Shown: in pieces, positions 7,647 through 29,459 of the stretch | Layout: the number at the start of each line of letters is the position of its first letter | Numbering within the stretch: the stretch's first letter is position 1 | Virus record (IMG/VR): IMGVR_UViG_3300008117_004325 | Span: 1 to 29,459 of that record | Strand: one strand, 5' to 3' | Source of the DNA: a virus | DNA: 29,459 bases | Program-made: the position numbers and the translations under genes | The notes under the pieces: generated by a model | What the model was told of the DNA's origin: nothing | The model's database searches: none | What the model saw: the letters and a program-made list of their open reading frames with translations, nothing else

Positions 7647-7934
7647 ATGTTCTTGAAAAAACAAACTCAACAGACTCAACATGTTAGACTCAGTAAACTA
7701 GGAGTAGCACACAACTACGCTAGAAGAAAAACCATTGCAGTTTTTCGATGTGATAACTGTGATAGTGAATTCACACGTGAGCTACGCAAGATGGATCATA
7801 GAAGATTGAGCAACAACTACTTTCATGTATGTGCGTTATGCGATGCAAAAAAATTTGCCCAACGTAAGGGAGTTGAACGCAAGCAGATCTGGGACATGCC
7901 CGCTAGCACCACTTTGCCTGTGGGAAAATACTAG
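7647..7934 (+). CDS. Small zinc-ribbon phage protein
   Basis: 95 residues, basic at the N-terminus, with two cysteine pairs: [10 protein letters not shown] (CxxC) and, about 25 residues later, [11 protein letters not shown] (CxxC). This spacing fits a structural zinc-binding ribbon. Many basic residues (RRK, RELRK, DHRR) suggest nucleic-acid contact, but no catalytic motif is visible; an HNH nuclease is not supported because the expected His/Asn pattern is absent. It is transcribed alone on the plus strand from a late-type motif and converges with iscA, overlapping its stop by 4 bp. Small proteins of this kind are common in T4-like marine phages (from memory); their role is unknown. Confidence 0.75.
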
Positions 7935-8260
7935 ACTCTAAAACTTTCGCCGCAGCCGCAGCGATCGCGTTCGTTGGGATTGACAAAATCAAACCCCTCG
8001 TTAAGTCCTTTTTTGATCCAATCCATTTCTATACCTTCAAGATACACCAGACTTTTAGGATCCACAAACACATGCACACCGTGGCTGACAAAACTCACAT
8101 CATCCGCACGAATACCGTGGGGCAGATCCACGTACTCCAACACGTAGGCCAATCCACTGCAACCTGTGGTCTTGACGCCTACGCGGATACCCAGACCCTT
8201 GGGTCTCTGTGCCAGATTGAACTTAACCTTATCAGCGGCCGTTTCAGTTAGTGTAATCAT
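7931..8260 (-). CDS. iscA: A-type iron-sulfur carrier (IscA/ErpA/HesB family)
   Basis: 109 residues, the full length of an A-type Fe-S carrier. The three conserved cysteines are present: C34 in TTGCSGLAY, and C101 and C103 in the C-terminal RCGCGESF. Members bind iron or a [2Fe-2S]/[4Fe-4S] cluster and hand it to apoproteins in the cytoplasm. The start ATG lies inside the end of iscU (17-bp overlap), so the two are translationally coupled and probably act together. IscA, ErpA and SufA cannot be told apart from sequence by eye. No cysteine desulfurase (iscS) is in the window, so sulfur would have to come from the host enzyme. Confidence 0.9.
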
Positions 8261-8636
8261 GCCTGTTCTTGTAATCGGCTACAGCAGCTTTGATAGCATC
8301 TTCCGCAAGTATTGAACAGTGAATTTTAACAGGAGGTAGTGCTAGTTCTTCGGCAATTTCGGAGTTTTTGATTGATCCTGCTTGGCCGAGAGTTTTTCCT
8401 TTGACCCATTCTGTAATGAGGCTCGAACTCGCAATAGCCGATCCGCAGCCATACGTTTTAAATTTTGCATCTGTAATAATACCTGTATCATGATCAACCT
8501 TTATTTGTAGTTTCATAACATCGCCACAAGCAGGGGCACCAACCATACCAGTACCAATATCAGTATCACTCTTGTCAAAAGATCCGACATTCCTGGGATT
8601 TTCATAATGATCAATTACTTTTTCCGAATAGGCCAT
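8244..8636 (-). CDS. iscU: Fe-S cluster assembly scaffold IscU
   Basis: 130 residues, the usual size of bacterial IscU. The three cluster-ligating cysteines are all present: C37 in GAPACGDV (with D39), C64 in [11 protein letters not shown], and C107 in [11 protein letters not shown]. The LPPVK motif at residues 100-104, which in bacterial IscU is recognised by the HscA chaperone, is intact, so the protein should be able to use host Isc partners. IscU receives sulfur from IscS and iron, builds a [2Fe-2S] cluster and transfers it on. It overlaps iscA downstream and follows the 38-aa membrane-protein gene by 2 nt, in an operon SOD - small membrane protein - iscU - iscA. All residues needed for function look intact. 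Confidence 0.95.
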
Positions 8637-8756: not shown

Positions 8757-9317
8757 TTATTCTCCTATTAAGCGGTCGTTAACGACAGACCAGTCGATAA
8801 TACGCCAAATATTGTTTAGGTATTTGGCTTTATTCTGTTGATAGTCTAATGCCCAAGCATGTTCCCACCAATCAATGAGTAGAGCAATTTTCATGCCTTT
8901 ACGATATTCGTGATTGGGAATGGTGTGCAGTTTGCCCGCAGTATCCATATAGACCCAACCGGAACCTTGAATAGCCATAGCTTCTTTTTCTACAGCTTCT
9001 TTAAACTTGTCAAAGCTGCCGTAGACACTGTCAATTAATTCACCTGCTGCTTCTGTGGGTTTATTGGCAGCTCTTGGAGGAGTTAGATTTCCAAAGTACA
9101 AATTATGCAACATTGCGCCGCCATAATTAAATTTAGAATCACCTTCTCCGTCATTGTATCTTTCAAAATACTTGGCAGCTAGGCCTGAATAATGATAGTC
9201 CAGAGTATCTTTGCTCATCACGGGATCAAGTTCTTCTTTGCCAAAACTCAGTTTGTTTTGAACAATTTCTCTAGTATCAGTATCTTCGTGTAGGTATTTG
9301 ATGAAATGTAGCGCCAT
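8757..9317 (-). CDS. sodB: Fe/Mn-type superoxide dismutase
   Basis: 186 residues, converting superoxide to O2 and H2O2. By alignment to E. coli FeSOD from memory, all four metal ligands are present: H42 in LDYHYS, H71 in AMLHNLYF, and D149 and H153 in DWWEHAW. The gateway Tyr is Y50. The two His that normally follow the first ligand (KHHxxY) are Leu46 and Ala47. The second-sphere position that is Gln in MnSOD is His136 (PNHEY), paired with Gly67, a combination I associate with some Fe-specific or cambialistic enzymes. There is no signal peptide, so it acts in the cytoplasm. ATG at 9317 follows a TAAATA motif by 4 nt, with AGG adjacent. It is the first gene of the iscU/iscA operon. Confidence 0.92.
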   Translation of the reverse strand: MALHFIKYLHEDTDTREIVQNKLSFGKEELDPVMSKDTLDYHYSGLAAKYFERYNDGEGDSKFNYGGAMLHNLYFGNLTPPRAANKPTEAAGELIDSVYGSFDKFKEAVEKEAMAIQGSGWVYMDTAGKLHTIPNHEYRKGMKIALLIDWWEHAWALDYQQNKAKYLNNIWRIIDWSVVNDRLIGE

Positions 9318-9320
9318 CCT

Positions 9321-9328
9321 ATATTTAG
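9321..9328 (-). promoter_or_regulatory. Late-type motif CTAAATAT before the SOD operon
   Basis: TAAATA is separated from the SOD ATG by 4 nt (TAGG). It forms one half of a near-palindromic divergent element with the plus-strand CATAAATA at 9331-9338 (TATTTA-GCGC-ATAAATA). Confidence 0.55.
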
Positions 9329-9330
9329 CG

Positions 9331-9338
9331 CATAAATA
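9331..9338 (+). promoter_or_regulatory. Late-type motif CATAAATA before the Lys/Ala/Pro-rich gene
   Basis: CATAAATA lies about 20 nt before the ATG at 9359, with a good Shine-Dalgarno (AAGGAG) between them. It resembles the T4 late element TATAAATA. Confidence 0.6.
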
Positions 9339-9358
9339 ACCTACAAGGAGATTTCAAT

Positions 9359-9598
9359 ATGATCGGTTTATTAAAGAAACTATTTGGTTCTAAGCCAGCA
9401 GAACAAACTGCGGAAGTTCCATATAAAGTAGAGGCAGCACCAGTGGTCGAAGCAGCGCCTATACCTGCTCCGGTAGTTGAGGCAGCACCAAAAGCAGAGC
9501 CGCAGAAAAAGGCTGCTCCTGCAAAGAAAGCAGCCCCAAAAAAGCAACAGTTTGCCAAAAAGCCTCCTGTTCCTAGAAAACCAAAATCACAAGCCTAA
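9359..9598 (+). CDS. Lys/Ala/Pro-rich low-complexity protein
   Basis: 79 residues. The N-terminus MIGLLKKLFGSKPAE is a short amphipathic segment. The rest is repetitive: VEAAP-type repeats (VEAAPVVEAAP, VVEAAPKAEP) followed by a very basic KKAAPAKKAAPKKQQ tail. ATG at 9359 has a strong AAGGAG site 9 nt upstream and a CATAAATA late motif before that, which favours this strand over an overlapping frame on the other strand. The tail resembles histone-H1-like Lys/Ala/Pro tails and could bind DNA or an acidic surface; the N-terminus could touch membrane. No catalytic domain. It converges with uvsE and overlaps its end by 12 bp. Confidence 0.75.
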   Translation: MIGLLKKLFGSKPAEQTAEVPYKVEAAPVVEAAPIPAPVVEAAPKAEPQKKAAPAKKAAPKKQQFAKKPPVPRKPKSQA

Positions 9599-10609
9599 TT
9601 CTTTAGCTTGTTCGTAAAGTGCGAAGCTGGCTAAATTCTTGGCCTTGCTTTCGCACATGATATCGAATTGGTCTCGAAAGCTCAGTGCCCATTCATTCAC
9701 TGCTGTGTTCCAGTAGAATTCTGAATGTGCTCTGAGCTTTTGTTTTTTATAACCAGCTTCTAGGAGGGGCGAAAGAGCGGGACGTTGGTGTCGGGGATGG
9801 TCAATAAGGCAGTCTTCCCGTGAAAGACTATAATGTAAAGTAGGACGCACACCACGCCAACTATCAATAATCCTTTTAACACGGTCATCAGATGGGTCAA
9901 TATATTCTCCTGAGTTAATCCAATGGTGATGAATATCTAGAACTAGGGCACAGTCTTTGACCAGCTCAATACTGGAGTCAATGCCCCAGGTCATTTCATC
10001 ATTTTCAATTGTGATGCAATTACGAGCTTCGGGTGACAGCTTGGTCAACGCTCTGCGTATACCCTCAGGGCCTTCTCGACCTGAGATATGCACGTTGATC
10101 TTGAAGTCCTGGAATGTCTTTCCATAGCCCATCCATCGAGCCATGTCAGTATGATATTCAAATTCTTCAATGCTTCTATCTACAATACCAGGATTACTAG
10201 ATGCAAGCACAGTGAACTGACCAGGATGGAAACTAAGCCGAACACGATTCTCACGGGCCAGTTCACCCACTCGGCTAAAATTTCTTTGGGCGTAGTTCCT
10301 AACATCGGACTGCCGCCAAAACCACTTCCAACTAGGCTCAGTGTATACAGGCAATATATCACTGCTGAGTCGTACCATTCTAAGATCTTCATCTAGTGTC
10401 CCCACCCTGGCCACCAATTTGTAGCAGGCTTCTATGTTTCGTTCCATCAAGTCCCAGAGCCGCTGTTCTGCTTCTTGAGGATGCTCTCGCAGCCACCTCA
10501 CTGTGGTAGCACCTGTATTTAAGTCACGGTCACGAGCATTGATTTTCATTCCGTCAACTTCGGAAGGATCATTGATCCATTTGCAGGCAAAGCCTATACG
10601 TTTAGTCAT
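9587..10609 (-). CDS. uvsE: UV damage endonuclease (UvsE/UVDE)
   Basis: 340 residues, typical UVDE size, with a TIM-barrel arrangement of metal-binding motifs: RLSFHPGQF (128-131 HPGQ), a following EYHTD (~151-155), INVHISG (~171-177), ENDE (202-205), and DIHHHW (225-230). UVDE nicks DNA 5' of cyclobutane dimers, 6-4 products and some other lesions, starting excision repair without the host Uvr system; this suits a phage of sunlit water. The gene has a near-perfect host promoter (TTGACA, 17 nt, TATACT) whose -10 ends 6 nt before the ATG, so the mRNA should start at or next to the start codon. That predicts early expression. Confidence 0.93.
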   Translation of the reverse strand: MTKRIGFACKWINDPSEVDGMKINARDRDLNTGATTVRWLREHPQEAEQRLWDLMERNIEACYKLVARVGTLDEDLRMVRLSSDILPVYTEPSWKWFWRQSDVRNYAQRNFSRVGELARENRVRLSFHPGQFTVLASSNPGIVDRSIEEFEYHTDMARWMGYGKTFQDFKINVHISGREGPEGIRRALTKLSPEARNCITIENDEMTWGIDSSIELVKDCALVLDIHHHWINSGEYIDPSDDRVKRIIDSWRGVRPTLHYSLSREDCLIDHPRHQRPALSPLLEAGYKKQKLRAHSEFYWNTAVNEWALSFRDQFDIMCESKAKNLASFALYEQAKELGL

Positions 10610-10615
10610 ACAACA

Positions 10616-10644
10616 AGTATAACATCATCACCGCCAGTTGTCAA
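10616..10644 (-). promoter_or_regulatory. Sigma70 promoter of uvsE (TTGACA-17-TATACT)
   Basis: -35 TTGACA at 10644-10639, a 17-nt spacer, and -10 TATACT at 10621-10616 on the minus strand. The expected +1 coincides with the uvsE ATG at 10609, giving a leaderless transcript. Confidence 0.8.
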
Positions 10645-12260: not shown

Positions 12261-12448
12261 CAATGCCTAATGACGTTGGCAATAATAAACAGGCAGGTTA
12301 TAACATGTATGATGACCCAAAATGTTTTTAAAAATAATGCTACTCGTGCTTCCCGGACAGTAAGAATAGGAACATCCGGGCGGTCCTCGTCCGTCTGTCC
12401 CATCAGGTGCCCAGTTGCTCGAGCCCATATACGTTCGAAACTATTCAT
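12257..12448 (-). CDS. Small membrane protein, 63 aa
   Basis: 63 residues: a soluble N-terminal half ([17 protein letters not shown], acidic QTDEDRPD) and a hydrophobic C-terminal span ([19 protein letters not shown]) ending RHW. One transmembrane helix with the N-terminus likely in the cytoplasm. The start overlaps the queD-like stop by 4 bp (ATGA type) and the gene runs into kdsA, so it belongs to the queD-kdsA-glycosyltransferase transcription unit. I do not recognise the family beyond its being a typical small membrane protein of T4-like marine phages; function unknown. Confidence 0.7.
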
Positions 12449-12972
12449 CCTTGATAGATAGCAGAGTTTGCACCGTGTTCAAAAACTTCAGCACTTACTA
12501 AACGCACACTGGCATTTACAGGATACCGTCCTGTTGATCCTTGTTTAAGTTCATCCAAGATACGTGACATTTCATCGTAGCAGATTTTAGCAAACATTTC
12601 ACAGCCTACTCCTTCTACTATTCGAAGATCACATAATGCACCACGTTCATACGGTATTGTACTTAGATGATTTTTACTGTCTATGTCAACTATCTCGTTC
12701 ATGTGTTTGAAAAAATCCAACATGGGATCGTCGTGTGCAACTATCAGTGTATGATCAAACATAGAGTCTGCCCATTCTTTGAATAGCTTGAGGCCACCAA
12801 AGTCCATGACCCAATTTTTATCATCTAGTGTTTCGGATTCAAAAATCAGTTTAATACCAATTGAGTATCCATGTAATGTTGAGCAATGACTGTGCGTGGC
12901 ACGCCATTGTCTAAAACAGCATGACAGACCTCTGTCATTGCCGTAGGTTTTTGTTGAAAGATATTTCGCCAT
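12445..12972 (-). CDS. queD: 6-pyruvoyl-tetrahydropterin/6-carboxytetrahydropterin synthase-like protein (QueD family)
   Basis: 175 residues from ATG 12972, chosen because AGGAGG lies 6 nt upstream; the frame extends to 12990 but without an RBS. Family signs: CFRQWRA, THSHCSTLHGYS (C30, H34), WVMDFGGLK (D57), FDHTLIV (DH pair) and VFEHGANSA (C-terminal Glu). In E. coli QueD the zinc site is AAH...HGH; here those positions read FRQWR and HGY, so this is the divergent FRQWRA/HGY subgroup, and its zinc ligation may differ. QueD makes 6-carboxy-tetrahydropterin for queuosine/archaeosine and for phage 7-deazaguanine DNA modification. No queE, queC or folE is in the window, so the real role is open. 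Confidence 0.75.
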   Translation of the reverse strand: MAKYLSTKTYGNDRGLSCCFRQWRATHSHCSTLHGYSIGIKLIFESETLDDKNWVMDFGGLKLFKEWADSMFDHTLIVAHDDPMLDFFKHMNEIVDIDSKNHLSTIPYERGALCDLRIVEGVGCEMFAKICYDEMSRILDELKQGSTGRYPVNASVRLVSAEVFEHGANSAIYQG

Positions 12973-13072
12973 CTCTTGCCTCCTATGCATAAAGCGAGTA
13001 AGTTTGACGACATGCAGAGTTTATAAAGCGGGATGAATGACGTAAAAAGACCGCTGTGCCTGTGTGTATAGA

Positions 13073-17995: not shown

Positions 17996-18379
17996 TCAAA
18001 TTTTTCTTTGGTAGCCTGCTAGATTGAGCATGATACTATACTGCTCGTAGGCCTTTTGGACAGCGGCATTAGATTGTCTATGCCAACTTTCTTCACGTTC
18101 TTTTTCCATAAGCATAGCAAACATATCAGAATCGCTGTAGCCATGGTTGTGATGGCCAAAAAATCTATATTCCATTTCAACCAGAGCACGAAATCTGCTT
18201 TCAGGTATCTGGACTGTGTATACCTTTTCTGTTTCATATTCTATAGTATCCTTGCTTACAACGTCTGCTCGCAGAGGATCTGTGAAATACCTAGGAGGAT
18301 GATATCTAGCTCTACGTTTTTGATCATCTACGATTTGCACTTCGTAGTTTTTGCAAAACTGATCAATTTTTTCTTTCAT
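17996..18379 (-). CDS. Conserved phage protein of unknown function, 127 aa
   Basis: 127 residues, basic and charged. N-terminal part: KEKIDQFCKNYEVQIVDDQK, then RARYHPPRYFTDPLRADVV. Middle: beta-type YETEKVYTVQIPESRFRAL. C-terminal half: helical with EMEYRFFGHHNHGYSDS and KAYEQYSIMLNLAGYQ. The HHNHGYSD stretch could bind metal but no known motif fits. The ATG overlaps the thyX stop (ATGA), so it is co-translated with thyX. A short intergenic region with a sigma70 promoter for the next unit follows. Function unknown. Confidence 0.7.
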   Translation of the reverse strand: MKEKIDQFCKNYEVQIVDDQKRRARYHPPRYFTDPLRADVVSKDTIEYETEKVYTVQIPESRFRALVEMEYRFFGHHNHGYSDSDMFAMLMEKEREESWHRQSNAAVQKAYEQYSIMLNLAGYQRKI

Positions 18380-19041
18380 TGTACAAGACTTTCTGCTAAT
18401 GGAAATATCTCTGCGATTACCTTTGCACAGGCTTTGGCAACTTCTTGATGCTCTTTCTGTGTACCGTTAGCACTTCGTAATTCGATAAAGTGTACCCATG
18501 AACGCAGTGTGCCATTCATATACAGGCGGCTTTCGATAAGTCCTTCTGGCAGTACTGCCCGAGCTTGTTCTTTGGCTATGCCGTTAGCGATAGCCCATTC
18601 GTATTCTCGTTTGGCAGCATAGATGACTCGTTGTTGAGCACGGTACCAATCATTTTGTAATAACTGATCATCGACTTCGACACTGTTCTGTCTATTCTTG
18701 GTGTCTTGAAGTCTAGCTTCTCTCGTAACAAAATTGAGATCTTTCGTTGGGTCAGCATAGCGTTGAGAGAACTCTTGGAAACTGAAACTTCTGTGTCGCA
18801 AGATTTGACGGGCAATGTCTCGAGTGGTTGTGATTTCGATACAGGCTGAGACCATTTCGAGTGGGCTCCAGTGTTGGTGCTTGACCAAGTATCGGATAAG
18901 TTTGTCTGATGTATCTGTGTTGAACTGATTGGAAGGATTGCTGACACGGGCGCAATACGCAATGAGTTCCTGTGCATCTCCGATACCCATATCTCGAAAT
19001 TCGTCTGCGGGTTGACTATATGATAAAAGTTTAACATTCAT
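18376..19041 (-). CDS. thyX: Flavin-dependent thymidylate synthase ThyX
   Basis: 221 residues, typical of ThyX (EC 2.1.1.148), which makes dTMP from dUMP using methylene-tetrahydrofolate and FAD/NADPH. The signature RHRx7S is present: RHR at 82-84 and S92 in LRHRSFSFQEFSQRY. Also seen are HQHWSPLEM (residues 55-63), which helps position substrate, and the C-terminal MNGTLRSWVHFIELRS with the catalytic Arg and His region. Phage ThyX supplies dTMP for genome replication. TAAATA precedes the ATG by only 3 nt and no Shine-Dalgarno is visible. The downstream 127-aa gene overlaps by 4 bp. Confidence 0.96.
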   Translation of the reverse strand: MNVKLLSYSQPADEFRDMGIGDAQELIAYCARVSNPSNQFNTDTSDKLIRYLVKHQHWSPLEMVSACIEITTTRDIARQILRHRSFSFQEFSQRYADPTKDLNFVTREARLQDTKNRQNSVEVDDQLLQNDWYRAQQRVIYAAKREYEWAIANGIAKEQARAVLPEGLIESRLYMNGTLRSWVHFIELRSANGTQKEHQEVAKACAKVIAEIFPLAESLVQ

Positions 19042-19054: not shown

Positions 19055-19603
19055 TTAGGTTAGTATATCGAAGTTTACAACACAGCGTGGTCCTGTTTTA
19101 GGAATACCGCCACCGTGATATATAAGTCCATCAAACACGACCACCCGGCCGCGTTTGGGAGATACTGATTGAACTATGTTATTGTCGCCGTCAAAGAATA
19201 CGGTGTCTCCATCTGCGTCGTTGACATAATACAATACTACAGTATGTTTAAAGGGGAAGTCTTGATGTGCTGCATAATTTTTTAATTTTGTTTCGTAAGG
19301 TAGTATAAGATAAATCCTAGCTACCATTATTTCTTTTAAAGTTAATCCTAGGTCTTGACATACCACCTGCGGTATCAATGCAAAATTATCTAGATGATTA
19401 GATCGTTGAGAACTAGATTTTAACACGTGAACAAAAGAAATAGAGTTAACTCCTGGTTCATTTGCCGTTGATTCGTATTTGCATCGCAGATCAACTGTGG
19501 GATGCATGATCTCTTCCTCTACACTAGTTCTTCCTAAAATACTTAATTCATAATAATCTTGAAGATGTTTAGGAATCAAGTCATCATAGATCTTGATATT
19601 CAC
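19055..19603 (-). CDS. 2-oxoglutarate/Fe(II)-dependent oxygenase (prolyl-4-hydroxylase type)
   Basis: 182 residues. The double-stranded beta-helix ligands are visible: H113 and D115 in AAHQDFPF, H163 in LIYHGGGIP, and the 2-oxoglutarate-binding Arg (R173) in TGPRCVVNFD. Between them, LYYVNDADGDTVFFDG is typical of phage P4H-like enzymes, which are frequent in marine T4-like phages. The substrate (protein proline, nucleotide or other) is not predictable. The start is GTG at 19603, overlapping the stop of the upstream virion-like gene as GTGA. No signal peptide, so it acts in the cytoplasm. One of five Fe(II)/2OG-type enzymes in this window. Confidence 0.87.
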   Translation of the reverse strand: MNIKIYDDLIPKHLQDYYELSILGRTSVEEEIMHPTVDLRCKYESTANEPGVNSISFVHVLKSSSQRSNHLDNFALIPQVVCQDLGLTLKEIMVARIYLILPYETKLKNYAAHQDFPFKHTVVLYYVNDADGDTVFFDGDNNIVQSVSPKRGRVVVFDGLIYHGGGIPKTGPRCVVNFDILT

Positions 19604-20110: not shown

Positions 20111-20299
20111 TTAGGCCTTGGCTTCTTTGCGAGCGTTCTTTTCTGCTGTGATTTCGTTGCGACGAGCTTTAACACCCTTGGCAACATCCTGAAGTGCTTT
20201 ACGAGCGCGAGTACCGGCAGCGCCATTACCTGCTGCGAATTTGGCATCCTCAGCCAAGAATACTTCAAAGTCTGCTTTTAATTGATCAACTGTTGACAT
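20111..20299 (-). CDS. Histone H1-like DNA-binding protein (Hc1-type)
   Basis: 62 residues. The core GNGAAGTRARKALQDVAKGV closely follows the GNKAAxxRxR...I/V..K pattern of chlamydial Hc1 and bacterial Hc1-like proteins, which bind DNA without sequence specificity and compact it. The N-terminal MSTVDQLKADFEVFLAEDAK is an amphipathic helix, and the C-terminus is basic (RRNEITAEKNARKEAKA). A phage copy could coat phage or host DNA. AAGGA lies 9-10 nt before ATG 20299. The leader includes a small hairpin and, further up, the tRNA-like gene, so both may come from the promoter at 20483-20511. The alternative, a generic basic helical protein, is less likely given the motif. Confidence 0.78.
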   Translation of the reverse strand: MSTVDQLKADFEVFLAEDAKFAAGNGAAGTRARKALQDVAKGVKARRNEITAEKNARKEAKA

Positions 20300-20482: not shown

Positions 20483-20511
20483 ATTATATATGTGTAAATC
20501 TCCCATGTCAA
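20483..20511 (-). promoter_or_regulatory. Perfect consensus sigma70 promoter (TTGACA-17-TATAAT) for the tRNA-like gene
   Basis: -35 TTGACA at 20511-20506, a 17-nt spacer, and -10 TATAAT at 20488-20483 on the minus strand. The predicted +1 (~20476) coincides with the tRNA-like 5' end, so little or no 5' processing would be needed. The -35 overlaps the end of the hydrolase gene. Confidence 0.87.
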
Positions 20512-21584: not shown

Positions 21585-22214
21585 ATGTCATTACAAATTG
21601 AAAATATAAATTATGTCCCCTTTCATATCAAGGATTGGATAGGTCTTCATAAAGAACTCAGTTCAAAATATCACAATGGCATAGTAGAACCAAACGAGGT
21701 TAATGGTCGTGTAGGCACAAGAGTTTACGAATGGAGTTATGAAAATTTTGGAAATTTTTATTCTGAATTGACTCTATTGCTTACTCGTTTTACCTGCAAG
21801 GTTCGGCGAGCTAGATTTTTTTATACCGCTCCTAAGGGTCAGTTAAACGTGCATATTGACGGTACCAATCAAAATGGACATAATTATTGGGCCATAAATT
21901 TTCCAATTCATGTCCCACAAACAGAGCACTATCAAGAATGGTACGAATATAAGGGAGAATACAAAGCAAACTTTAGTTCTAACTATACAGATAGTACTAT
22001 ACTAGAAAATCCACAAGATATTAAACTTATTGATAGGTTGGTATTAGATAGACCCTATCTAGTTAAGGTTGGAATTCCTCACGCTGTTTATAATTTTTCT
22101 TCTTGCCCTAGATTAATTTTGTCTATACGATTTGAGTCTTGGGCTATAAACTTAATGAATCTTATTAATTATTCTATCGAGCAAGAAACCGCGTTTAAAA
22201 AAATAATAGATTAG
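21585..22214 (+). CDS. 2OG/Fe(II) oxygenase-like protein (aspartyl/asparaginyl hydroxylase-like)
   Basis: 209 residues. A probable Fe(II) site is visible: H90 and D92 in LNVHIDGTNQN, and H166 in GIPHAVYNF, followed by R176 in CPRLILSIRF as the likely 2-oxoglutarate anchor. The strand order (RARFFYTAPKG, WAINFPIHV, YLVKVGIPHA) fits a jelly-roll fold. Overall similarity to known families is low by eye, so the substrate is unknown. It is a single gene on the plus strand, divergent from the secreted hydrolase and convergent with the TauD-like gene; a strong hairpin follows its stop. No Shine-Dalgarno before ATG 21585. Confidence 0.68.
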   Translation: MSLQIENINYVPFHIKDWIGLHKELSSKYHNGIVEPNEVNGRVGTRVYEWSYENFGNFYSELTLLLTRFTCKVRRARFFYTAPKGQLNVHIDGTNQNGHNYWAINFPIHVPQTEHYQEWYEYKGEYKANFSSNYTDSTILENPQDIKLIDRLVLDRPYLVKVGIPHAVYNFSSCPRLILSIRFESWAINLMNLINYSIEQETAFKKIID

Positions 22215-22235
22215 CTGTTAGAAAAAACAGAAACT

Positions 22236-22260
22236 AGCGTTGCCTACTGTAGGCAACGCT
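22236..22260. terminator. Hairpin terminator between convergent oxygenase genes
   Basis: AGCGTTGCCT-ACTGT-AGGCAACGCT, a perfect 10-bp stem, followed on the minus strand by a T-rich run (TAGTTTCTGTTTTTTC). It overlaps the last codons of the TauD-like gene. On the plus strand no U-tract follows. Confidence 0.7.
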
Positions 22261-23122
22261 GATAAAATTCTACAAGTCTTTCTTCAATATGATCTATATT
22301 AGTTCTATAGAACTTTCTTTCTAGATTTGGATCGAACTCTAGTTGGCTTCGATTGTGTACAAATGGCCAATTGTCATAGATAACAATATCAAAATCGTCC
22401 CACTTGTGGGTATACAACAGATCTTTTTGTGTTTCTAAAAATTTATAATAGGGAGACAATATTGATTTTGGATCCATAGTTTCATTTTTAAATTTTACTT
22501 TTTTAATCCATGCATCATTTATATCTTCTTCTGGGACACAGTAATAGTTTAATCTTAGAGATGGCTTTCCGGTGATAGGATGTATTTTAATAAAATCAAA
22601 TTCTTGAACTTCGGTTCCTTTTTGATACCAGCTTTGTTGAATGATCTTAATATCTTGTATTTGAGATTTTAAATTTTCAGGCAATCGGTCCAAGCCCTCT
22701 TCAATATTAAGCCACGTAGTCAGTCCGGATTCCGGATTGGGATTGCTGACCATCCATAAAGTTCTATGAGGGAACGGTTTTATTTTTTTATTAGGAATAT
22801 CAGAATGCCATGGCATGAATTTTAATCCTAGTTTAGGACTAATTTTATTACTAATAGGACTAAGAGCAATTTTTCTATGTCCTACATCAACCATCTCAAC
22901 AGATTCCAAACTGTATTCGTAGTCTTTTTCAGTCCACATCATGCCAAAGTGACTGCACAATTTTATATAATCTTGTTTGGAAAAATTCATACGTTTGAAA
23001 ACTATTAATTTTCTGGCATAGATCATGTTTCTCCAGAAGGAAAAATCCTGTTTAAAAAAGTCTAAAGGATTCTCAAACTCAATTATAGTACCCCACCCGG
23101 AATGTATTTGTGTTTCTTTCAT
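22244..23122 (-). CDS. TauD/TfdA-family 2-oxoglutarate/Fe(II) dioxygenase
   Basis: 292 residues, the usual TauD-family length. Fe(II) ligands: H106 and D108 in FMPWHSDIP, and H256 in WPFVHNRSQL; R273 in RKFYRTNI is the 2-oxoglutarate anchor. N-terminal strand-helix elements (LIVFKRMNFSKQDYIKLCSH) also match the family. TauD-type enzymes hydroxylate small acids such as sulfonates, amino acids or carnitine-like compounds; the substrate here cannot be read from sequence. No signal peptide. The start overlaps the stop of the upstream 23727 gene by 4 bp (ATGA), so two oxygenases are co-translated. Ends in a strong hairpin. Confidence 0.87.
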   Translation of the reverse strand: MKETQIHSGWGTIIEFENPLDFFKQDFSFWRNMIYARKLIVFKRMNFSKQDYIKLCSHFGMMWTEKDYEYSLESVEMVDVGHRKIALSPISNKISPKLGLKFMPWHSDIPNKKIKPFPHRTLWMVSNPNPESGLTTWLNIEEGLDRLPENLKSQIQDIKIIQQSWYQKGTEVQEFDFIKIHPITGKPSLRLNYYCVPEEDINDAWIKKVKFKNETMDPKSILSPYYKFLETQKDLLYTHKWDDFDIVIYDNWPFVHNRSQLEFDPNLERKFYRTNIDHIEERLVEFYQRCLQ

Positions 23123-23727
23123 AATATCCTAGCATCTACTATTAGGTTGATTCGGTCTTTGTTCGATGTGTTTTTTAACCAATGCGGAACATGATTGTTA
23201 ACCCAGTAAAGATTTCCCTGTAATAATTTTACATCTTCGTCTCGAATATGAAAAATATTTTCGTTGTCAGTTTGATCTATTACAAAATGAAATCTATCAT
23301 AATAGTCAAAGTATTGTCCTTGATCGGTATGAATGTCTATATCACTATTGGCAAAATGCTTGCTAAAAAATATTCGCCCCCATTCAACTTTGTTAGCACC
23401 TGCATTGATAAGTGATTGTTCTAACCATGCTACCATTTCTTGAAATAAGAGAGTTTTAGTTAAGATGTCAGTATCTGCCACAGTCATTATCTGATTGGCC
23501 TGGTTGGTCGATTTTATGGTTGAAAAGTCTCCAACTGGCTTTCTCAAGACCACCATTTCGGTATGGCGCAAGGCGTGAGCCATTTTTTGTCTATTAGTAA
23601 TCAGCTTCCACATAAAGTCAGTTTTTGGATTGCCGAAATACAGTTTTAATTCTTCCGCAAGTTTCTTATTTTCATCTATATGAAAGTAGTTGTTTTCGAA
23701 ACTGCAAAATTTATTAGGTGAGTGCAT
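23119..23727 (-). CDS. Aspartyl/asparaginyl beta-hydroxylase-like 2OG/Fe(II) oxygenase
   Basis: 202 residues. The catalytic half shows H133 and D135 in IDIHTDQGQYF, H182 in HVPHWLKNTS and R192 in DRINLIVDARI, the order and spacing of the Asp/Asn hydroxylase-type cupin fold. RFHFVIDQTDNENIF and GNLYWVNNH supply the core strands. Its N-terminal ~100 residues are less typical. It is probably cytoplasmic. It shares a transcript with the TauD-like gene (4-bp overlap) and is divergent from another family member at 23747, so three oxygenase genes sit side by side. The substrate is unknown. Confidence 0.8.
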   Translation of the reverse strand: MHSPNKFCSFENNYFHIDENKKLAEELKLYFGNPKTDFMWKLITNRQKMAHALRHTEMVVLRKPVGDFSTIKSTNQANQIMTVADTDILTKTLLFQEMVAWLEQSLINAGANKVEWGRIFFSKHFANSDIDIHTDQGQYFDYYDRFHFVIDQTDNENIFHIRDEDVKLLQGNLYWVNNHVPHWLKNTSNKDRINLIVDARIL

Positions 23728-23734
23728 ATTTAAA

Positions 23735-23742
23735 GTAAATAC
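23735..23742 (+). promoter_or_regulatory. Late-type promoter GTAAATAC, 5 nt from the ATG
   Basis: GTAAATAC on the plus strand; TAAATA is followed by CCTTA and ATG 23747. No Shine-Dalgarno. It supports the ATG start over an upstream TTG at 23690 that would run into the divergent gene. Confidence 0.55.
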
Positions 23743-23746
23743 CTTA

Positions 23747-24475
23747 ATGGAACCCTATATTTATTTTAACTCAAATCCCTTTTGTAATTCTCTACAGGCC
23801 AATTGGCTGTTGATTAGAAAGGAGATATATGATATTATGCATATCAGAGGGCTGATCGACAAAGACGGAAACATACTAACTAATGATCAAACTCAGTCAG
23901 GAGTTAAGCCCAATGCTTTAGAGACACTGTATTCAGGATCATTCAAAAGTCTATGCATCTATATTAAAGAAAACATGCTGGACCAATTTGAAATGAAAGC
24001 AATGAGTTGGGGTCCAAATGAAAAAGAAAGATGGAACCCGTATGCTAAACGTATGGAATTCCTAGGTGCTTTTATTGCTGCCTATAAAGATTTAATAGGA
24101 TCAGCAGTGTTTAATATTAGCTATCCAGGAAGTGAGTTAAAACATCATTTTGGATTAGATCCAGACTATATCCGACTGCACCTTTGTATAAAAGAAGATC
24201 CTCATTGCGTTTTTGATATAGAAAATCATAGGCATGTATGGAAAGAAGGCGAACTATTTGCCTTCGATGATGCAAATGTTTTGCATGGAACTAAACATTT
24301 TATTGAAGGGCAGGGACCTAGGATTATTTTATTGATGGATGTTAAAAAAGAATACCTTAAACCATTTGCAAAGAACTGGCCTTGTAGAGATAGCAGACCA
24401 AAAATTTCCGAATTATCGCAATTAGTTGGGTGGGGGAATACCAAACTTAAAACTTTTGCATCAGACAAGGCTTAA
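23747..24475 (+). CDS. Aspartyl/asparaginyl beta-hydroxylase domain protein
   Basis: 242 residues from ATG 23747. The C-terminal ~110 residues follow the Asp/Asn hydroxylase pattern well: SELKHHFGLDPDYIRLHLCI (Fe-ligand His 133 or 134), HVWKEGELFAFDDANVLHG (second His 180), and PRIILLMDV (R192, 2OG anchor). In this family the iron site uses two His and lacks the usual acidic ligand, as seems to be the case here. Known members hydroxylate Asp/Asn or related side chains, or small peptidic metabolites. A rho-independent terminator follows directly (24480-24505), so it is transcribed alone from its late-type promoter. The N-terminal ~120 residues are helical and unassigned. Confidence 0.83.
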   Translation: MEPYIYFNSNPFCNSLQANWLLIRKEIYDIMHIRGLIDKDGNILTNDQTQSGVKPNALETLYSGSFKSLCIYIKENMLDQFEMKAMSWGPNEKERWNPYAKRMEFLGAFIAAYKDLIGSAVFNISYPGSELKHHFGLDPDYIRLHLCIKEDPHCVFDIENHRHVWKEGELFAFDDANVLHGTKHFIEGQGPRIILLMDVKKEYLKPFAKNWPCRDSRPKISELSQLVGWGNTKLKTFASDKA

Positions 24476-24479
24476 CTGT

Positions 24480-24505
24480 ATTTGTGGAGTCGCCACAAAT
24501 TTTTT
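24480..24505 (+). terminator. Rho-independent terminator after the hydroxylase gene
   Basis: ATTTGTGG-AGTCG-CCACAAAT, a perfect 8-bp stem followed by TTTTT. It lies 4 nt after the stop codon and ends before the next late-type promoter at 24523. Confidence 0.85.
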
Positions 24506-24522
24506 GAAGTACTTTTTCATGC

Positions 24523-24530
24523 CATAAATA
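24523..24530 (+). promoter_or_regulatory. Late-type promoter CATAAATA, 5 nt from the ATG
   Basis: CATAAATA, then GACGC, then ATG 24536, placed right after a terminator. It differs by one base from the T4 TATAAATA element. Likely promoter for the 24536-27459 gene run. Confidence 0.62.
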
Positions 24531-24535
24531 GACGC

Positions 24536-25315
24536 ATGAATACACAGTATATTAAATCTTGGCTTACTGGTAATGCCTCTCGCCATTCTAGGCTTTATTC
24601 TTCTTGGTACGGAAAGAAAAATGCCAATGCTATATATGCTCCAGGCCTAGATAGATTTCTATTGGTAGATAATTTCGATCTCTGGTTAACCATGGAAGTA
24701 GCCAGAATATTATCATCCAAAATACCCACGCAGGTATTTTTGTTGGGCAAGGATGTACCAGAATTTGACAACACAAACTGTTTTGAAACAACGATTATAG
24801 ACAAAAGAAAATATGTCATCAACGGTTCTAACATCTTGACAGCAAGGCAAGTTCCTTCGCTACACGTACTAATGGAATCGGATTCTGTAGCCAATGTAGG
24901 TATACCTAAAGATTATCAAACAGGCACACATAAAAAAATGTTAGATAATCTCAAAAGCTATTCTTTGTTTGTGTTACGAAATATACACGCTATAACTATT
25001 GCAGACTCTATTAAGAATATAACACCATTTGAGGACATGATTAAAACATACTTGCCAGATCATATTCCAGATGTTAAATTACCACAAGATCAGTCTCCTG
25101 TTCCTAATGGCATAAAAAATCAAATCAAATCAATATTATATCAAAGTCAATCTGTTAAGGAAGCGTTGGAAAGAATTGAAACTGTTTGGTTTGACTACGG
25201 ATATAATTTACCAGATTATCGCAATATGTACTACTACTATATGGGCCTAGACACTCCTCAGCATCTTAAAGAACAAGAAATAAATTCGAATCAATTTACT
25301 CCGAGGGCCGTATGA
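24536..25315 (+). CDS. Unknown protein linked to a PP-loop ATPase, 259 aa
   Basis: 259 residues from ATG 24536, set by a late-type promoter 5 nt upstream; the frame extends back to a TTG inside the terminator. I recognise no family. It has an alpha/beta look: IYAPGLDRFLLVDNFDLWLT, then TQVFLLGKDVPEF, TTIIDKRKYVINGSN and VPSLHVLMESDSVANVGIPK, which could be a nucleotide- or sugar-binding Rossmann-like domain, then a helical, Tyr-rich C-terminus (YGYNLPDYRNMYYYYMG). Its stop overlaps the start of the PP-loop gene by 4 bp, so the two are co-translated and probably act together. No signal peptide or membrane span. Confidence 0.65.
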   Translation: MNTQYIKSWLTGNASRHSRLYSSWYGKKNANAIYAPGLDRFLLVDNFDLWLTMEVARILSSKIPTQVFLLGKDVPEFDNTNCFETTIIDKRKYVINGSNILTARQVPSLHVLMESDSVANVGIPKDYQTGTHKKMLDNLKSYSLFVLRNIHAITIADSIKNITPFEDMIKTYLPDHIPDVKLPQDQSPVPNGIKNQIKSILYQSQSVKEALERIETVWFDYGYNLPDYRNMYYYYMGLDTPQHLKEQEINSNQFTPRAV

Positions 25316-26568
25316 TGTTAGATAAAGAGGACTCTTTGTATTTTAGCAGCATTATTTTTAACGGATACCAAGATGATTTCTGGAATCAGGTAAGAGAAGA
25401 AGCTGGAGAAGCCGGCAAGTTTATTATTGATCTAGGAAAGAGAATCAACCCTAATAGATTTGTAACTAGACACGGAGAATGGAGTCTTCCTTGGAAACAA
25501 GAATTGCCTCCAACATTTGAAATGCCTGAATACGATCCGCTATTTGCGAAGAGTTTTAGCCAAGTAACTGACGAACGTGCATTAGAAATTAAAAAATTAA
25601 TCAATGAACACAATCAAAAGTTTGCAGTCATGTACTCTGGGGGCATCGATAGTACCATTGTTTTGTGTGCGCTAATTAAAAATCTAACATCGGAAGAATT
25701 AAAAAATGTTGTGATCGCAACCAGCAGTCATGCCATAGTAGAGAACCCAACTTTTTGGCAGCAGTTTGTCTACGGCAAATTTAAAATTCTTGATTCTGCC
25801 AGCATGAAATATGACAGTCTTATAGAAATGGGATATCGGCCTATTACAGCAGACGAGGGCGACTGCATCTTTGGAACAGCTTTAGGATTGACATTGTATA
25901 CTAACTATGATGCTTATCTTATAGGAATGGATCAAGAATCCAGGAGTAGATTATCAGCAATTAAAGGTAAGATCACTTCAAACGAAGTACACTACAGTCA
26001 ATATAAAGACGTCATCATTAAACATTTTAGTCAGCCGCATGATCCTATGTTCGGTGAAAATTTCTACAATAAATTTGTCAAGAATATCGAAACAAGTTCC
26101 GTTCCAATACATAGTCTGCATGATTTCTTTTGGTGGATGATTTTTAATATCAAATATCTTAATTGTTCAATACGCGGCGCAATATATTTCAATGATAGAA
26201 TTCCAGTAAAGGAAGCCATATATGATTGGATTGTCAATTGGTTCAATGGTGCAGACTATCAACGTTGGAGTATGGTCAATAACAATAACGGTGAAAAGAT
26301 CGGATACAGCCAAAGCACATACAAGATGGCGGGAAGAAAATATATCTATGATCTAGATAAAAATTCTTGGTACTTTCATTTTAAGGTAAAGTTAGAAAGC
26401 CTAGGAGGCAGTATTGTATACGCACAAAACAATGACAACTTGCCTACAGAGATACATCCCAACGCTAGGTTTGGTCTAGATAAAGATTTTAATATTCTTT
26501 ATATTGATGATCCAGTGGTGCAAAACTACATTAGAGAAAATGTTATTAACTATAAAAAAGATTGGTAA
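25312..26568 (+). CDS. PP-loop (asparagine-synthetase-like, N-type) ATPase domain protein
   Basis: 418 residues. The PP-loop is clear: FAVMYSGGIDSTIVLCAL (SGGIDS at ~109-114), the AMP-forming nucleotide site of N-type ATP pyrophosphatases. It is followed by a second strand NVVIATSSHAIVENP and AYLIGMDQESRS. The order resembles asparagine-synthetase C-terminal or tRNA-modifying adenylating enzymes, but there is no N-terminal glutaminase and no zinc Cys of QueC or rhodanese of ThiI. Such enzymes activate a carboxyl or carbonyl group as an acyl-adenylate. The start (ATG 25312 or 25315) overlaps the preceding gene. The downstream tctC-like gene begins directly after its stop. The product is unknown; peptide-like or nucleobase modification are both possible. 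Confidence 0.75.
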   Translation: MMLDKEDSLYFSSIIFNGYQDDFWNQVREEAGEAGKFIIDLGKRINPNRFVTRHGEWSLPWKQELPPTFEMPEYDPLFAKSFSQVTDERALEIKKLINEHNQKFAVMYSGGIDSTIVLCALIKNLTSEELKNVVIATSSHAIVENPTFWQQFVYGKFKILDSASMKYDSLIEMGYRPITADEGDCIFGTALGLTLYTNYDAYLIGMDQESRSRLSAIKGKITSNEVHYSQYKDVIIKHFSQPHDPMFGENFYNKFVKNIETSSVPIHSLHDFFWWMIFNIKYLNCSIRGAIYFNDRIPVKEAIYDWIVNWFNGADYQRWSMVNNNNGEKIGYSQSTYKMAGRKYIYDLDKNSWYFHFKVKLESLGGSIVYAQNNDNLPTEIHPNARFGLDKDFNILYIDDPVVQNYIRENVINYKKDW

Positions 26569-27459
26569 ATGAAAAAAATATTGTTGTTATTATCTGTACT
26601 GGCATCTTCATTAGCACATGCATCAGAAACAATAAAAATTTATTCTCCTTACAGTCCTGGACACAGTGCAAGTCCTGCGCTGTTTAAAATTATAGACGTA
26701 GCTAACAATTCTCAAAATCTTTACAAGTTTACATTGGAGTTTAAGCCCGGAGCAAATCAATTACTGGCTGTTAGAGCACTGGACGACAAAAGTCTAGCAA
26801 TAATTGCTCCTGCATTTGTTGAAAATGTTCAAGAAGGAAAATTAAACGAAAGCGATTATATTCCAGTACACGCATTCGGCGATGCTTGTTGGGCAGTTGT
26901 TGTTAACAAACCCTTAAAAGGTGCTAAAGAATTCACAGTAGGCGGTGTAGGGTTTGGCAATGCTGCTCATTTAACTTCGTTGGCGTTGGGTGAAAAATAC
27001 AACTTTGATGTTCGATACATTGTTTTTAAATCCAACAACGATGCACTCATAAACATGGCTGGAAACAATGGAGTTGAGCTGGTCATTGACAAGTTTGAAA
27101 ACTATAAAGGCTTAAAGGACAAAAATCCTTCCATGAACATGATTGCTGCAAGCTGCCCTAAACGATTGCCGCAGGCGCCTGATGTAAAAACTTTAAAAGA
27201 GTTAGGTATTAATGCGCCTTATATTTTTAATATTATGGTAGCGCATAGAGATATGCCCTCAGCTAGAAGAGACGTAATTAAACAGATACTTAACGATGCT
27301 ACTGTAAAACTAGGAGATAAGGAAATCTTTAAATTATCTGCGATGCGCCCTCCGGTTTTTGATAATATCAATGTTGAAAAATTCTACGAAACCAGCATAT
27401 CTACAGTAAAAAAACTACAGTTAAAGTATAGAGATAAGATAGAAAGCTCTAAAAAGTAG
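26569..27459 (+). CDS. tctC: Periplasmic substrate-binding protein, TctC/Bug family
   Basis: 296 residues, the usual length for this family. The N-terminus MKKILLLLSVLASSLAHA is a signal peptide cleaved after AHA, so the protein should reach the periplasm. Mature features: IYSPYSPGHSASPALF (first ligand loop), LEFKPGANQLLAVRAL (the family's pGAgg...a...l pattern) and FGDACWAVVVNK, TVGGVGFGNAAHLTSLALG, and a C-terminal PDVKTLKELGINAPY. Bug/TctC proteins present carboxylates such as citrate to a tripartite tricarboxylate transporter; no membrane subunits are in the window, so host TctAB would be needed. The ATG directly follows the PP-loop stop. A secreted solute-binding protein in a phage implies action on host uptake. 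Confidence 0.85.
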   Translation: MKKILLLLSVLASSLAHASETIKIYSPYSPGHSASPALFKIIDVANNSQNLYKFTLEFKPGANQLLAVRALDDKSLAIIAPAFVENVQEGKLNESDYIPVHAFGDACWAVVVNKPLKGAKEFTVGGVGFGNAAHLTSLALGEKYNFDVRYIVFKSNNDALINMAGNNGVELVIDKFENYKGLKDKNPSMNMIAASCPKRLPQAPDVKTLKELGINAPYIFNIMVAHRDMPSARRDVIKQILNDATVKLGDKEIFKLSAMRPPVFDNINVEKFYETSISTVKKLQLKYRDKIESSKK

Positions 27460-27494: not shown

Positions 27495-27541
27495 ATACAC
27501 AGGCTTCATACCTGTATTTTAACGTTAAAATGGAGTTTCAT

Positions 27542-28483
27542 ATGAAAACAATTCGCTGGGTTATTGCCCATGAGCCAATTGATCTATTCCTTAGAGCAGC
27601 AGAACGCTTTAGCAAAGCAGTTAAAGACCAAACCAACGGTGAACTAGACATCGAAATTTTGTCCTTGACAGATTATTCTAAGAAGTATAACAACGGCGTA
27701 AAAGTAACAAAACACGATCTTCTACAGTTAATGGAAGATGGCGTTGTTGAAATGAGCCAAATGTATACAACATGGTTGGGACACTACAGCAAGGACATGT
27801 TTGTTTTAGACATGCCGTTCTTGTTCCGTGATCATCAACATGCTGACCGTGTGCTAGAAGGTGAGATTGGGGAATATTTGCTTAAAGGCCTTGAGCAGAA
27901 TTCTGCAGTTCGCGGACTATCATTCACATACAGTGGCGGTTTTAGAATTATTCCTAGCCAGAAAGAGCTAGCAACTGTTGAGTCTTTCCGTGGTACAAAG
28001 ATTCGTACTGCTCGTAGTCCAGTAGCAGTTGATACATTTAAAGCAGTTGGTGCTGAAGTTATCGACACTATTGAACTAGAAGAAATGAACGAAGCTGTTA
28101 AGGCTGGTGTTATTGATTCTGGTGAATCTACTTTTGTTCGTGTGTTTCCTTTACAACAGGCAGAAGCATTTGGTGTAGTTAATGATACAGCTCACAGCTT
28201 GTTCTTAACCAGCATCATTGTTGCTACCAAGTTCTGGGATACATTAGATGCTAAGACACAAGAAATTATGAAAGATGCTGCTCTTGATGCTGCTCGTGCA
28301 GAGCGTCGTGAAAGCGTTGAACAAGTTGCTGACGTTGTAAAACAATGTGAAGCAAAAGGTGTTCCAGTTATTTCTATGAGTCAAGAAGAAACTGCTAAGT
28401 TTAAAGCAGCAACTGAAGTAGTCTATGACAAGTATCAAGACTTCTTTACAACAAATTTAGTTGCACAGATTCAATCTAAGTAA
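27542..28483 (+). CDS. dctP: TRAP-type (DctP/SBP family 7) substrate-binding protein lacking a signal peptide
   Basis: 313 residues from ATG 27542 (GGAG 6 nt upstream; an ATG 12 bases earlier carries the GGAG itself). Family features: FLRAAERFSKAVKDQTNGEL (the canonical F.e.v...t.G.l), MEDGVVEMSQMYTTWLGHY, FVLDMPFLFRDHQHADRVL, and FRGTKIRTARSPVAVDTFKA with the carboxylate-binding Arg (IRT), then LFLTSIIVATKFWDTL. The N-terminus MKTIRWVIAHEPIDLFLRAA starts at the first beta strand of the mature domain; no signal peptide is present, so it should stay in the cytoplasm unless exported otherwise. Arg codons are mostly CGT/CGC, unlike AGA/CGA in adjacent genes, which suggests high expression. A strong UUCG terminator follows. 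Confidence 0.88.
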   Translation: MKTIRWVIAHEPIDLFLRAAERFSKAVKDQTNGELDIEILSLTDYSKKYNNGVKVTKHDLLQLMEDGVVEMSQMYTTWLGHYSKDMFVLDMPFLFRDHQHADRVLEGEIGEYLLKGLEQNSAVRGLSFTYSGGFRIIPSQKELATVESFRGTKIRTARSPVAVDTFKAVGAEVIDTIELEEMNEAVKAGVIDSGESTFVRVFPLQQAEAFGVVNDTAHSLFLTSIIVATKFWDTLDAKTQEIMKDAALDAARAERRESVEQVADVVKQCEAKGVPVISMSQEETAKFKAATEVVYDKYQDFFTTNLVAQIQSK

Positions 28484-28528: not shown

Positions 28529-28927
28529 TAGTTGTTCTAACGCCCAATATGCGAACGGAGATTCAAACTCAAATTCAAATCTTCCAGATTTATGTAGCAC
28601 ACACGGAAAATTGTTAATTGTATTAATTTCACCCGATGCAGAAATAAATCTACAATTTTTTAGCATCAGGTTATTTGTATCGCACTTGAATTTGTTGATT
28701 ACTGTATTAAATATTGTTACGGTTGATTCGTTATTGACAATGTCAAACGTTAATATATGCTTACCCGACTCAACTTCAACAGTGAATTTTCTTTCAAAAG
28801 GAATTCTTGGTCTAGATAATTCTGTTCCTAAATTTATTTCTCGATGGTCTAAATAAACCTTATACTGCGGATGATGCTTGGTATAGTTTAAACTTAAATA
28901 TATTGCAATATCAAGTGTTTCTTTCAT
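28526..28927 (-). CDS. Phage protein of unknown function, 133 aa
   Basis: 133 residues, predicted mostly beta: IAIYLSLNYTKHHPQYKVYL, then REINLGTELSRPRIPFERKF, TVEVESGKHILTFDIVNNES and TVTIFNTVINKFKC, ending SGRFEFEFESPFAYWALEQL. The pattern of alternating strands, with charged turns and a final aromatic stretch, suggests a beta-sandwich such as a carbohydrate-binding or virion decoration module, but no specific family is recognised. The ATG overlaps the stop of the upstream gene (ATGA). Ends within the bidirectional terminator. Confidence 0.68.
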   Translation of the reverse strand: MKETLDIAIYLSLNYTKHHPQYKVYLDHREINLGTELSRPRIPFERKFTVEVESGKHILTFDIVNNESTVTIFNTVINKFKCDTNNLMLKNCRFISASGEINTINNFPCVLHKSGRFEFEFESPFAYWALEQL

Positions 28928-29459
28928 AGTAGTTGTTTTATCAGCTCTTGTTTTGAACCCATGAAATTACATTCACTACTACCTAGATAGTTTCTAAGCA
29001 CAACAATATTTGACAAGTCTGGGTCCCTATTAAAAATATATTCAGGTATACCCATATTTTTAGGTCTCGGATAACATCCTGTAATATCTATTTTATTTTC
29101 TTCGTTGTTTTTATCTAGATCTCTAACAGCAACATAACTTAACACAATTTCAGGGGTCCAGCTGTAAAAGTTAAACGGCATTTCTGGCATCATCATACTT
29201 CTAATTATGTCAGGCTCGTTTAATACAAACCCTTCAACCGTTGGATTATGATTTTGATCTTCAATTTCTTTGTCGTAACCGAATAGAAATGGACTGGCAT
29301 GGAAAAATGTAGGGTCAGGGTAGTATTCTAGATCCCCTCCACCAGTTACGAGATGCCCATTTTTAGATCTGACATAATCTCTAATAATTCTAAGAACAGC
29401 AGTTCCGCCTGGAGTTCTTGTATGGTATTCTTTTAAATTTTTTAATACTTCATTTGTGT
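28924..29459 (-). CDS. Unknown phage protein, 5' end beyond the window
   Basis: The frame is open from the stop at 28924 to the right edge (178 residues visible), so the ATG at 29196 is an internal Met rather than the start. Visible parts: RTPGGTAVLRIIRDYVRSKN, GHLVTGGGDLEYYPDPTFFH, NPTVEGFVLNEPD, then MPFNFYSWTPEIVLSYVAVR, and CYPRPKNMGIPEYIFNRDPD near the end. No family is recognised with confidence. It is coupled to the 133-aa gene by a 4-bp overlap, so the two may work together. The product may be far larger than what is seen here. Confidence 0.7.
   Translation of the reverse strand, partial: TNEVLKNLKEYHTRTPGGTAVLRIIRDYVRSKNGHLVTGGGDLEYYPDPTFFHASPFLFGYDKEIEDQNHNPTVEGFVLNEPDIIRSMMMPEMPFNFYSWTPEIVLSYVAVRDLDKNNEENKIDITGCYPRPKNMGIPEYIFNRDPDLSNIVVLRNYLGSSECNFMGSKQELIKQLL

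Follow-up and report, generated by a model that had tools for sequence, protein, structure and literature searches.

Does a run of neighbouring oxygenase and ATPase genes in an uncultured phage form one modification system, or do only some of the genes belong together? The window analysed here is the whole of virus record IMGVR_UViG_3300008117_004325, a 29,459-base fragment of an uncultured phage. A sequence-only reading of it had marked out an accessory island of six open reading frames, starting at 21585, 22244, 23119, 23747, 24536 and 25312: four 2-oxoglutarate (2OG) oxygenases, a protein of no recognised family (here X, 24536) and a PP-loop protein (here PPa, 25312). The coordinates and strands hold for all six, as do the oxygenase labels (three Asp/Asn-hydroxylase-like, one TauD-like). 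We find that the conserved unit consists of X-PPa and the solute-binding proteins encoded downstream, not of all six genes.

The conserved unit

The accessory island was upheld, and within it the co-translated X/PPa pair as a unit: the two genes overlap at ATGA and their close spacing is conserved. The unit extends past this pair to two binding proteins that the earlier reading omitted, a TctC-like protein (26569) that begins at the base right after the PPa stop codon, and then a DctP-like protein (27530) that starts 70 nt past the TctC-like gene.

Relatives (loci and long contigs are numbered here with L and G) were found on 3 viral contigs by the first PPa scan and on 21 by a profile scan; TctC gave 53 loci, and one genome scan gave two bacterial loci in metagenome-assembled genomes (MAGs). 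X lies immediately upstream of PPa, typically overlapping it, in 24 of 26 loci, some of which are near-identical viruses; in the remaining two, both from one virus, three genes separate X and PPa. Linkage was assessed on seven long contigs (G003, G004 and G006-G010, about 1.07 Mb) by comparing the positions of each family relative to PPa with random placement, with the caveat that the loci behind the profiles had themselves been recruited via PPa or TctC. On these contigs X was near PPa in 7/7, and DctP, present as one copy per contig, was within 6 kb of PPa in 7/7 (p≤5e-5). All six TctC copies, spread over four contigs, also fell within 6 kb. The two binding proteins are linked to X-PPa far more tightly than any oxygenase. 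The distances of X and PPa correlate (r=0.85), a result that shared ancestry alone could produce. AMP-ligase, SDR and BKACE genes were each within 8 kb of PPa in three of four cases; as a separate observation, they form a recurring module of three genes next to X-PPa, seen in phage L002 (3278-6221) and in bacterial L077 (2871-6541).

Genes of the T4-type gp23 capsid family and for a terminase occur on several of the related phage contigs. No relatives of X, PPa, TctC, TauD, PPb or PPc were found in the named-phage collection, whose DctP matches were 19-29% identical.

The TctC-like protein scores under the Pfam cut-off (25.0 bits vs 27) and matches PDB entry 4x9t at E=0.002; it shares 68% identity with the L002 copy and 66% with the L003 copy, and its N-terminus is hydrophobic and of the export type. 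The DctP-like protein is a clear family match (NCBIfam TRAP_S1, 145 bits, above cut-off), with its KIRT arginine region aligned to that of solved DctP structures. It differs from known TRAP binding proteins in three respects: it has no signal peptide, no TRAP membrane subunits were recognised nearby, and it is linked to a putative synthetase. No export signal was found in either the phage or the bacterial copies, whose N-termini begin at the mature domain with low hydrophobicity compared with TctC. A TRAP binding protein retained inside the cell would be unusual in itself.

Table 1. Genes and terminator-like sites of the island, in window coordinates
Position	Strand	Feature	Match or family
21585..22214	+	Asp/Asn-hydroxylase-like 2OG oxygenase, HID...H...R	oxy33/o199-related
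22236-22260		Terminator-like hairpin	
22244..23122	-	TauD/TfdA-like 2OG oxygenase, HSD...H...R	Pfam TauD E=5.6e-16, 59.7 bits
23119..23727	-	Asp/Asn-hydroxylase-like 2OG oxygenase, HTD...H...R	Pfam 29.2 bits, above cut-off
23747..24475	+	AspH/LpxO-like 2OG oxygenase, HxG two-His type	Pfam Asp_Arg_Hydrox 53.6 bits
24480..24500	+	Terminator-like hairpin between 23747 and X	
24536..25315	+	X, 259-aa partner protein	Family alignment A6, 21 members
25312..26568	+	PPa, stand-alone PP-loop enzyme, putatively of asparagine/beta-lactam-synthetase type	Alignment A5, 22 members
26569..27459	+	TctC-like solute-binding protein, signal peptide	Pfam TctC (PF03401) E=1.6e-5
27530..28483	+	DctP-family TRAP solute-binding protein, no signal peptide	Pfam DctP 5e-49, 167.6 bits
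28500..28525		Bidirectional terminator-like hairpin, strong, closes the cassette	
28924..29457	-	Second PP-loop protein (PPc family), C-terminal part, truncated at contig end	PPc profile E=1e-30

Oxygenases around the unit

The clustering of oxygenases round the cassette is real, but membership is loose. Iterated profiles placed 17 of the 20 Asp-hydroxylase-like genes on the long contigs within 16 kb of PPa (random mean 5.6, p=0.002), and 10 of the 20 within 8 kb (p=0.011). The 23119 and 22244 genes overlap by 4 nt, and the same overlapping pair is present in L010/L100, which are the same virus (56% identity; 48% for 22244 against the L010 copy). In this one other, independent virus the pair lies beside X-PPa-TctC-TctC-DctP, together with a relative of 21585. 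The proposed association of the oxygenases with X-PPa therefore stands as non-random clustering with a recurring pair, whereas the families taking part vary among viruses. The further claim that the six genes make up one fixed system fails, because the oxygenases differ from virus to virus and 23747 lacks a counterpart: iterated oxygenase profiles found none in related islands.

All four island oxygenases carry the metal-binding pattern HxD/HxG...H (HID in 21585, HTD in 23119, HxG in 23747, HSD in 22244). At 20.7 bits, 21585 falls slightly below the Pfam Asp_Arg_Hydrox (PF05118) cut-off of 22.6 bits, the other three being above theirs (27 bits for TauD, PF02668), and it matches oxygenase profiles from L006, L010 and L013. 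The closest PDB relatives of 22244 are TfdA-type enzymes, CarC and ScoE, with carbapenem synthase among the distant ones (E=0.001). The 23747 protein aligns with AspH and weakly resembles LpxO (35 bits, cut-off 500) and OlsC. A fifth 2OG-oxygenase-like gene (19055-19603, minus strand, HQD...H...R) belongs to a type that is scattered through related phages rather than clustered in islands.

The sequence-only reading had also given the small units of the island their own terminators and late-type promoters. Convincing terminator-like hairpins do occur at three sites (Table 1), but TATAAATA-like sites number 57 vs 52 expected, no excess over chance.

PPa and its partner X

In Pfam, PPa is recognised by its PP-loop only (SGGIDS; ATP_bind_3 E=0.003), and its sequence lies below every family cut-off in Pfam and NCBIfam. 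The PP-loop motif SGGxDS is invariant in 22/22 family members. It starts at residue 109 of 418, leaving only about 100 residues upstream, and the N-terminal glutaminase domain of asparagine synthetases is absent, the partner X having no PDB match either. The AlphaFold2 model of PPa (pLDDT 88) has beta-lactam synthetase, asparagine synthetase and carbapenam synthetase as its top Foldseek matches, all of them weak (E about 0.01, TM ≤0.34).

For X we found no Pfam, PHROG, NCBIfam or PDB match. Its AlphaFold2 model (pLDDT 80.5) returned no match in a fold search of the PDB, and on that ground we rejected the candidate assignment of X as a glutaminase (Ntn) domain; among uncultured phages, a handful of uncharacterised proteins resemble it in structure (best E=1.7e-5).

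Bacterial copies and distant relatives

Of the two bacterial loci, L076, from a Xanthobacteraceae MAG, carries DctP, X, PPa and then a 208-aa oxygenase-like protein, all co-directional; the last has the HTD...H...R pattern and resembles a phage oxygenase. The base composition of this module is lower than that of its surroundings (0.55-0.61 vs 0.64-0.66), as expected for transferred DNA. L077, from a 2.7-Mb MAG, holds SDR, AMP-ligase, BKACE, X-PPa-DctP, Asp-hydroxylase-like proteins and two desaturases near clpX/clpP, and its order contains more distant PPa-like proteins (profile comparison probability 100%). Most of the genes for these distant proteins directly adjoin a gene for a 190-240 aa partner. 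We considered homology between X and this upstream partner, which shares its position and overlap, and rejected it, since the profile comparison was not significant.

Two further loci with PPa-like genes deserve mention. A bacterial cluster of the order partner-PPa-PPa-partner-phosphopantetheine carrier protein (L093, 8015-11767) lies beside a cupin gene; it is biosynthetic-looking and unannotated. The cultured Pseudomonas phage Cygsa01 (L158) encodes two PPa-like PP-loop proteins, at 7685-8593 and 8878-9834, directly after tail-fibre-like genes. The bacterial PPa-like profile picks up both (E=1e-20 and 2e-19), and the MnmA (tRNA 2-thiouridylase) annotation that they bear looks doubtful. Unlike in the window, no X, DctP or oxygenase match was found in the stretch examined.

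A candidate amide synthetase and its alternatives

What might such a unit do? Three features suggest an amide (or lactam) synthetase: the fold class to which PPa comes nearest, its missing glutaminase domain and its coupling to a family of carboxylate-binding proteins. Our favoured explanation, held tentatively and at a little less than an even chance, is that X and PPa together form an ATP-dependent amide synthetase whose substrate is a carboxylate, and that the phage island housing them tailors metabolites. The X-PPa order, the DctP/TctC linkage, the bacterial loci, the oxygenase clustering, the PPa fold, the carrier protein beside bacterial PPa-like genes and carbapenem synthase as a distant relative of the TauD-like protein all speak for it.

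We infer a scheme that covers the reaction, what X, DctP and TctC each do, a single shared pathway and its product. In it, PPa would activate a carboxylate through its PP-loop, releasing AMP and PPi (pyrophosphate) as asparagine and beta-lactam synthetases do, and join it to an amine. As PPa has no glutaminase domain, the amine would not be produced in situ from glutamine. X would be a dedicated partner of PPa, helping it to recognise its substrate or to stay stable. Inside the cell, the cytoplasmic protein of the DctP fold may bind the carboxylate, either as substrate or as product; in islands that encode it, the exported TctC-like protein may aid uptake of that carboxylate by the host. The surrounding enzymes would vary the scaffold, here by way of the Asp-hydroxylase-like and TauD-like oxygenases, and in relatives by desaturases, Rieske proteins, AMP-ligase/SDR/BKACE, GNAT and further PP-loop proteins. 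Small-molecule synthesis or modification in the infected cell is the probable function of the island; on this scheme the molecule would be a carboxylate-derived metabolite, produced or altered during infection. Clavam and carbapenem pathways place a 2OG oxygenase after an asparagine-synthetase-like enzyme. The logic of the island resembles theirs, by analogy and not by membership.

Several observations weigh against the synthetase explanation. First, the structural matches of PPa are as weak as given above. Second, Asn_synthase (PF00733) matches eight of the 22 PPa family members, at best with E=0.0015, and does not match the window protein at all. Third, the best weak NCBIfam matches of PPa are a hypothetical protein, LarE and DndC, and one cysteine (C285) is invariant in PPa; the LarE and DndC matches therefore leave room for sulfur chemistry. 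Fourth, oxygenase families differ between viruses and Asp-hydroxylase-like genes are missing from two of the long contigs (G003 and G006); oxygenation is therefore not a fixed step.

This last point leads to the main rival, which is possible though less probable: that X-PPa-DctP is one unit in a hypervariable accessory region, and that the oxygenases are separate cargo, with targets of their own, in an insertion-prone locus. Besides the variation and occasional absence of oxygenases, it would account for their placement on both strands of the window, in units divided by terminator-like hairpins, and for related TctC loci that hold other cargo without X-PPa. Recurrence of the 23119-22244 pair with X-PPa argues against it, however, as do the bacterial locus in which DctP, X, PPa and an oxygenase-like gene run in a single direction and the clustering of oxygenases above random placement.

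Two further accounts carry less probability: surface decoration, and RNA or sulfur chemistry. On the former account, which we consider improbable, lipopolysaccharide or capsule would be modified (hydroxylated or amidated sugars, acyl chains) and superinfection blocked; the resemblance of 23747 to the lipid A hydroxylase LpxO and to OlsC, a glycosyltransferase-family gene at 10628 and, as read from the letters, a putative KDO-8-P synthase gene at 11415 would fit. Yet the LpxO score of 23747 is far under its cut-off, this gene alone among the oxygenases fails to recur, and in related islands the neighbourhood of X-PPa showed no identified sugar-nucleotide genes. Least probable of all is a role of PPa in RNA or nucleobase modification or sulfur transfer, in the manner of TilS, MnmA, LarE or DndC: the weak NCBIfam matches (TilS among them), the invariant C285, a QueD-like gene at 12445 and the MnmA label of the cultured-phage relative speak for it, but beta-lactam and asparagine synthetases top the fold search, the bacterial PPa-like relatives do not keep C285, and PPa is surrounded by binding proteins, CoA enzymes and oxygenases. 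Nucleobase modification, suggested from the sequence alone, found no specific support, the fold of PPa remotely resembling enzymes of asparagine/beta-lactam-synthetase-type amide formation.

Other features of the window

The accessory island runs beyond the window, because the second PP-loop gene (PPc) is cut by the contig end. Its fragment (28924-29457) matches L007/L008 at 34-35%; pairwise comparison with the L003 and L010 copies was not significant, so that membership in the PPc family rests on L007/L008/L048 and the profile. Elsewhere in the window are IscA-like and IscU-like Fe-S genes (7931-8636 and 8757-9317, beside a gene that reads as a putative superoxide dismutase), and PHROG matches to an endonuclease-family gene (UvdE-like by sequence, 9587-10609), a QueD-like gene (12445-12990) and a thymidylate-synthase (ThyX-like) gene (18376-19041). 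A perfect sigma-70 consensus promoter (TTGACA-17-TATAAT, 20483-20511, minus strand) stands upstream of leftward genes starting at 20268.

Relation to known systems and significance

Phage-borne metabolite-like islands are already known; the X-PPa-DctP core module is new, and was not found in the named-phage collection or in the literature searched. Jumbo cyanophages such as S-SSM6a carry a secondary-metabolite-like gene cluster with several oxygenases (Iyer et al. 2021, PMC7824862). The island resembles it in being phage-borne and in joining several 2OG/cupin oxygenases to predicted small-molecule tailoring enzymes, but the S-SSM6a-type cluster is centred on carbamoyltransferases, a halogenase and a HemK-like methylase, and the island on X-PPa and solute-binding proteins. 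None of those three enzyme types was identified among the scanned proteins of the island, which is cut by the contig end. The asparagine synthetase-like enzymes of natural-product pathways include beta-lactam synthetase, carbapenam synthetase, lasso cyclases, and amidating and nitrile-forming enzymes (PMC13060819). PPa shares with them the PP-loop and its best, though weak, fold match, and differs in having no N-terminal glutaminase-type domain, a separate partner X and a sequence under the family cut-offs.

A broader proposal, which we regard as doubtful, is that X-PPa-DctP represents a hitherto undescribed amide synthetase of two components, whose partner protein has a new fold and whose carrier, of the periplasmic-binding fold, is cytoplasmic; it would be common to bacterial chromosomes and large T4-like phages, and the phages would use it with oxygenases to make a natural product during infection. 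Family libraries miss both PPa and X, and a distant cultured-phage relative carries the MnmA label. Being small and well defined, the conserved unit lends itself to expression and metabolomics work, and its bacterial copies allow testing outside a phage. If the unit works as proposed, large environmental phages carry biosynthetic chemistry that is invisible to standard annotation.

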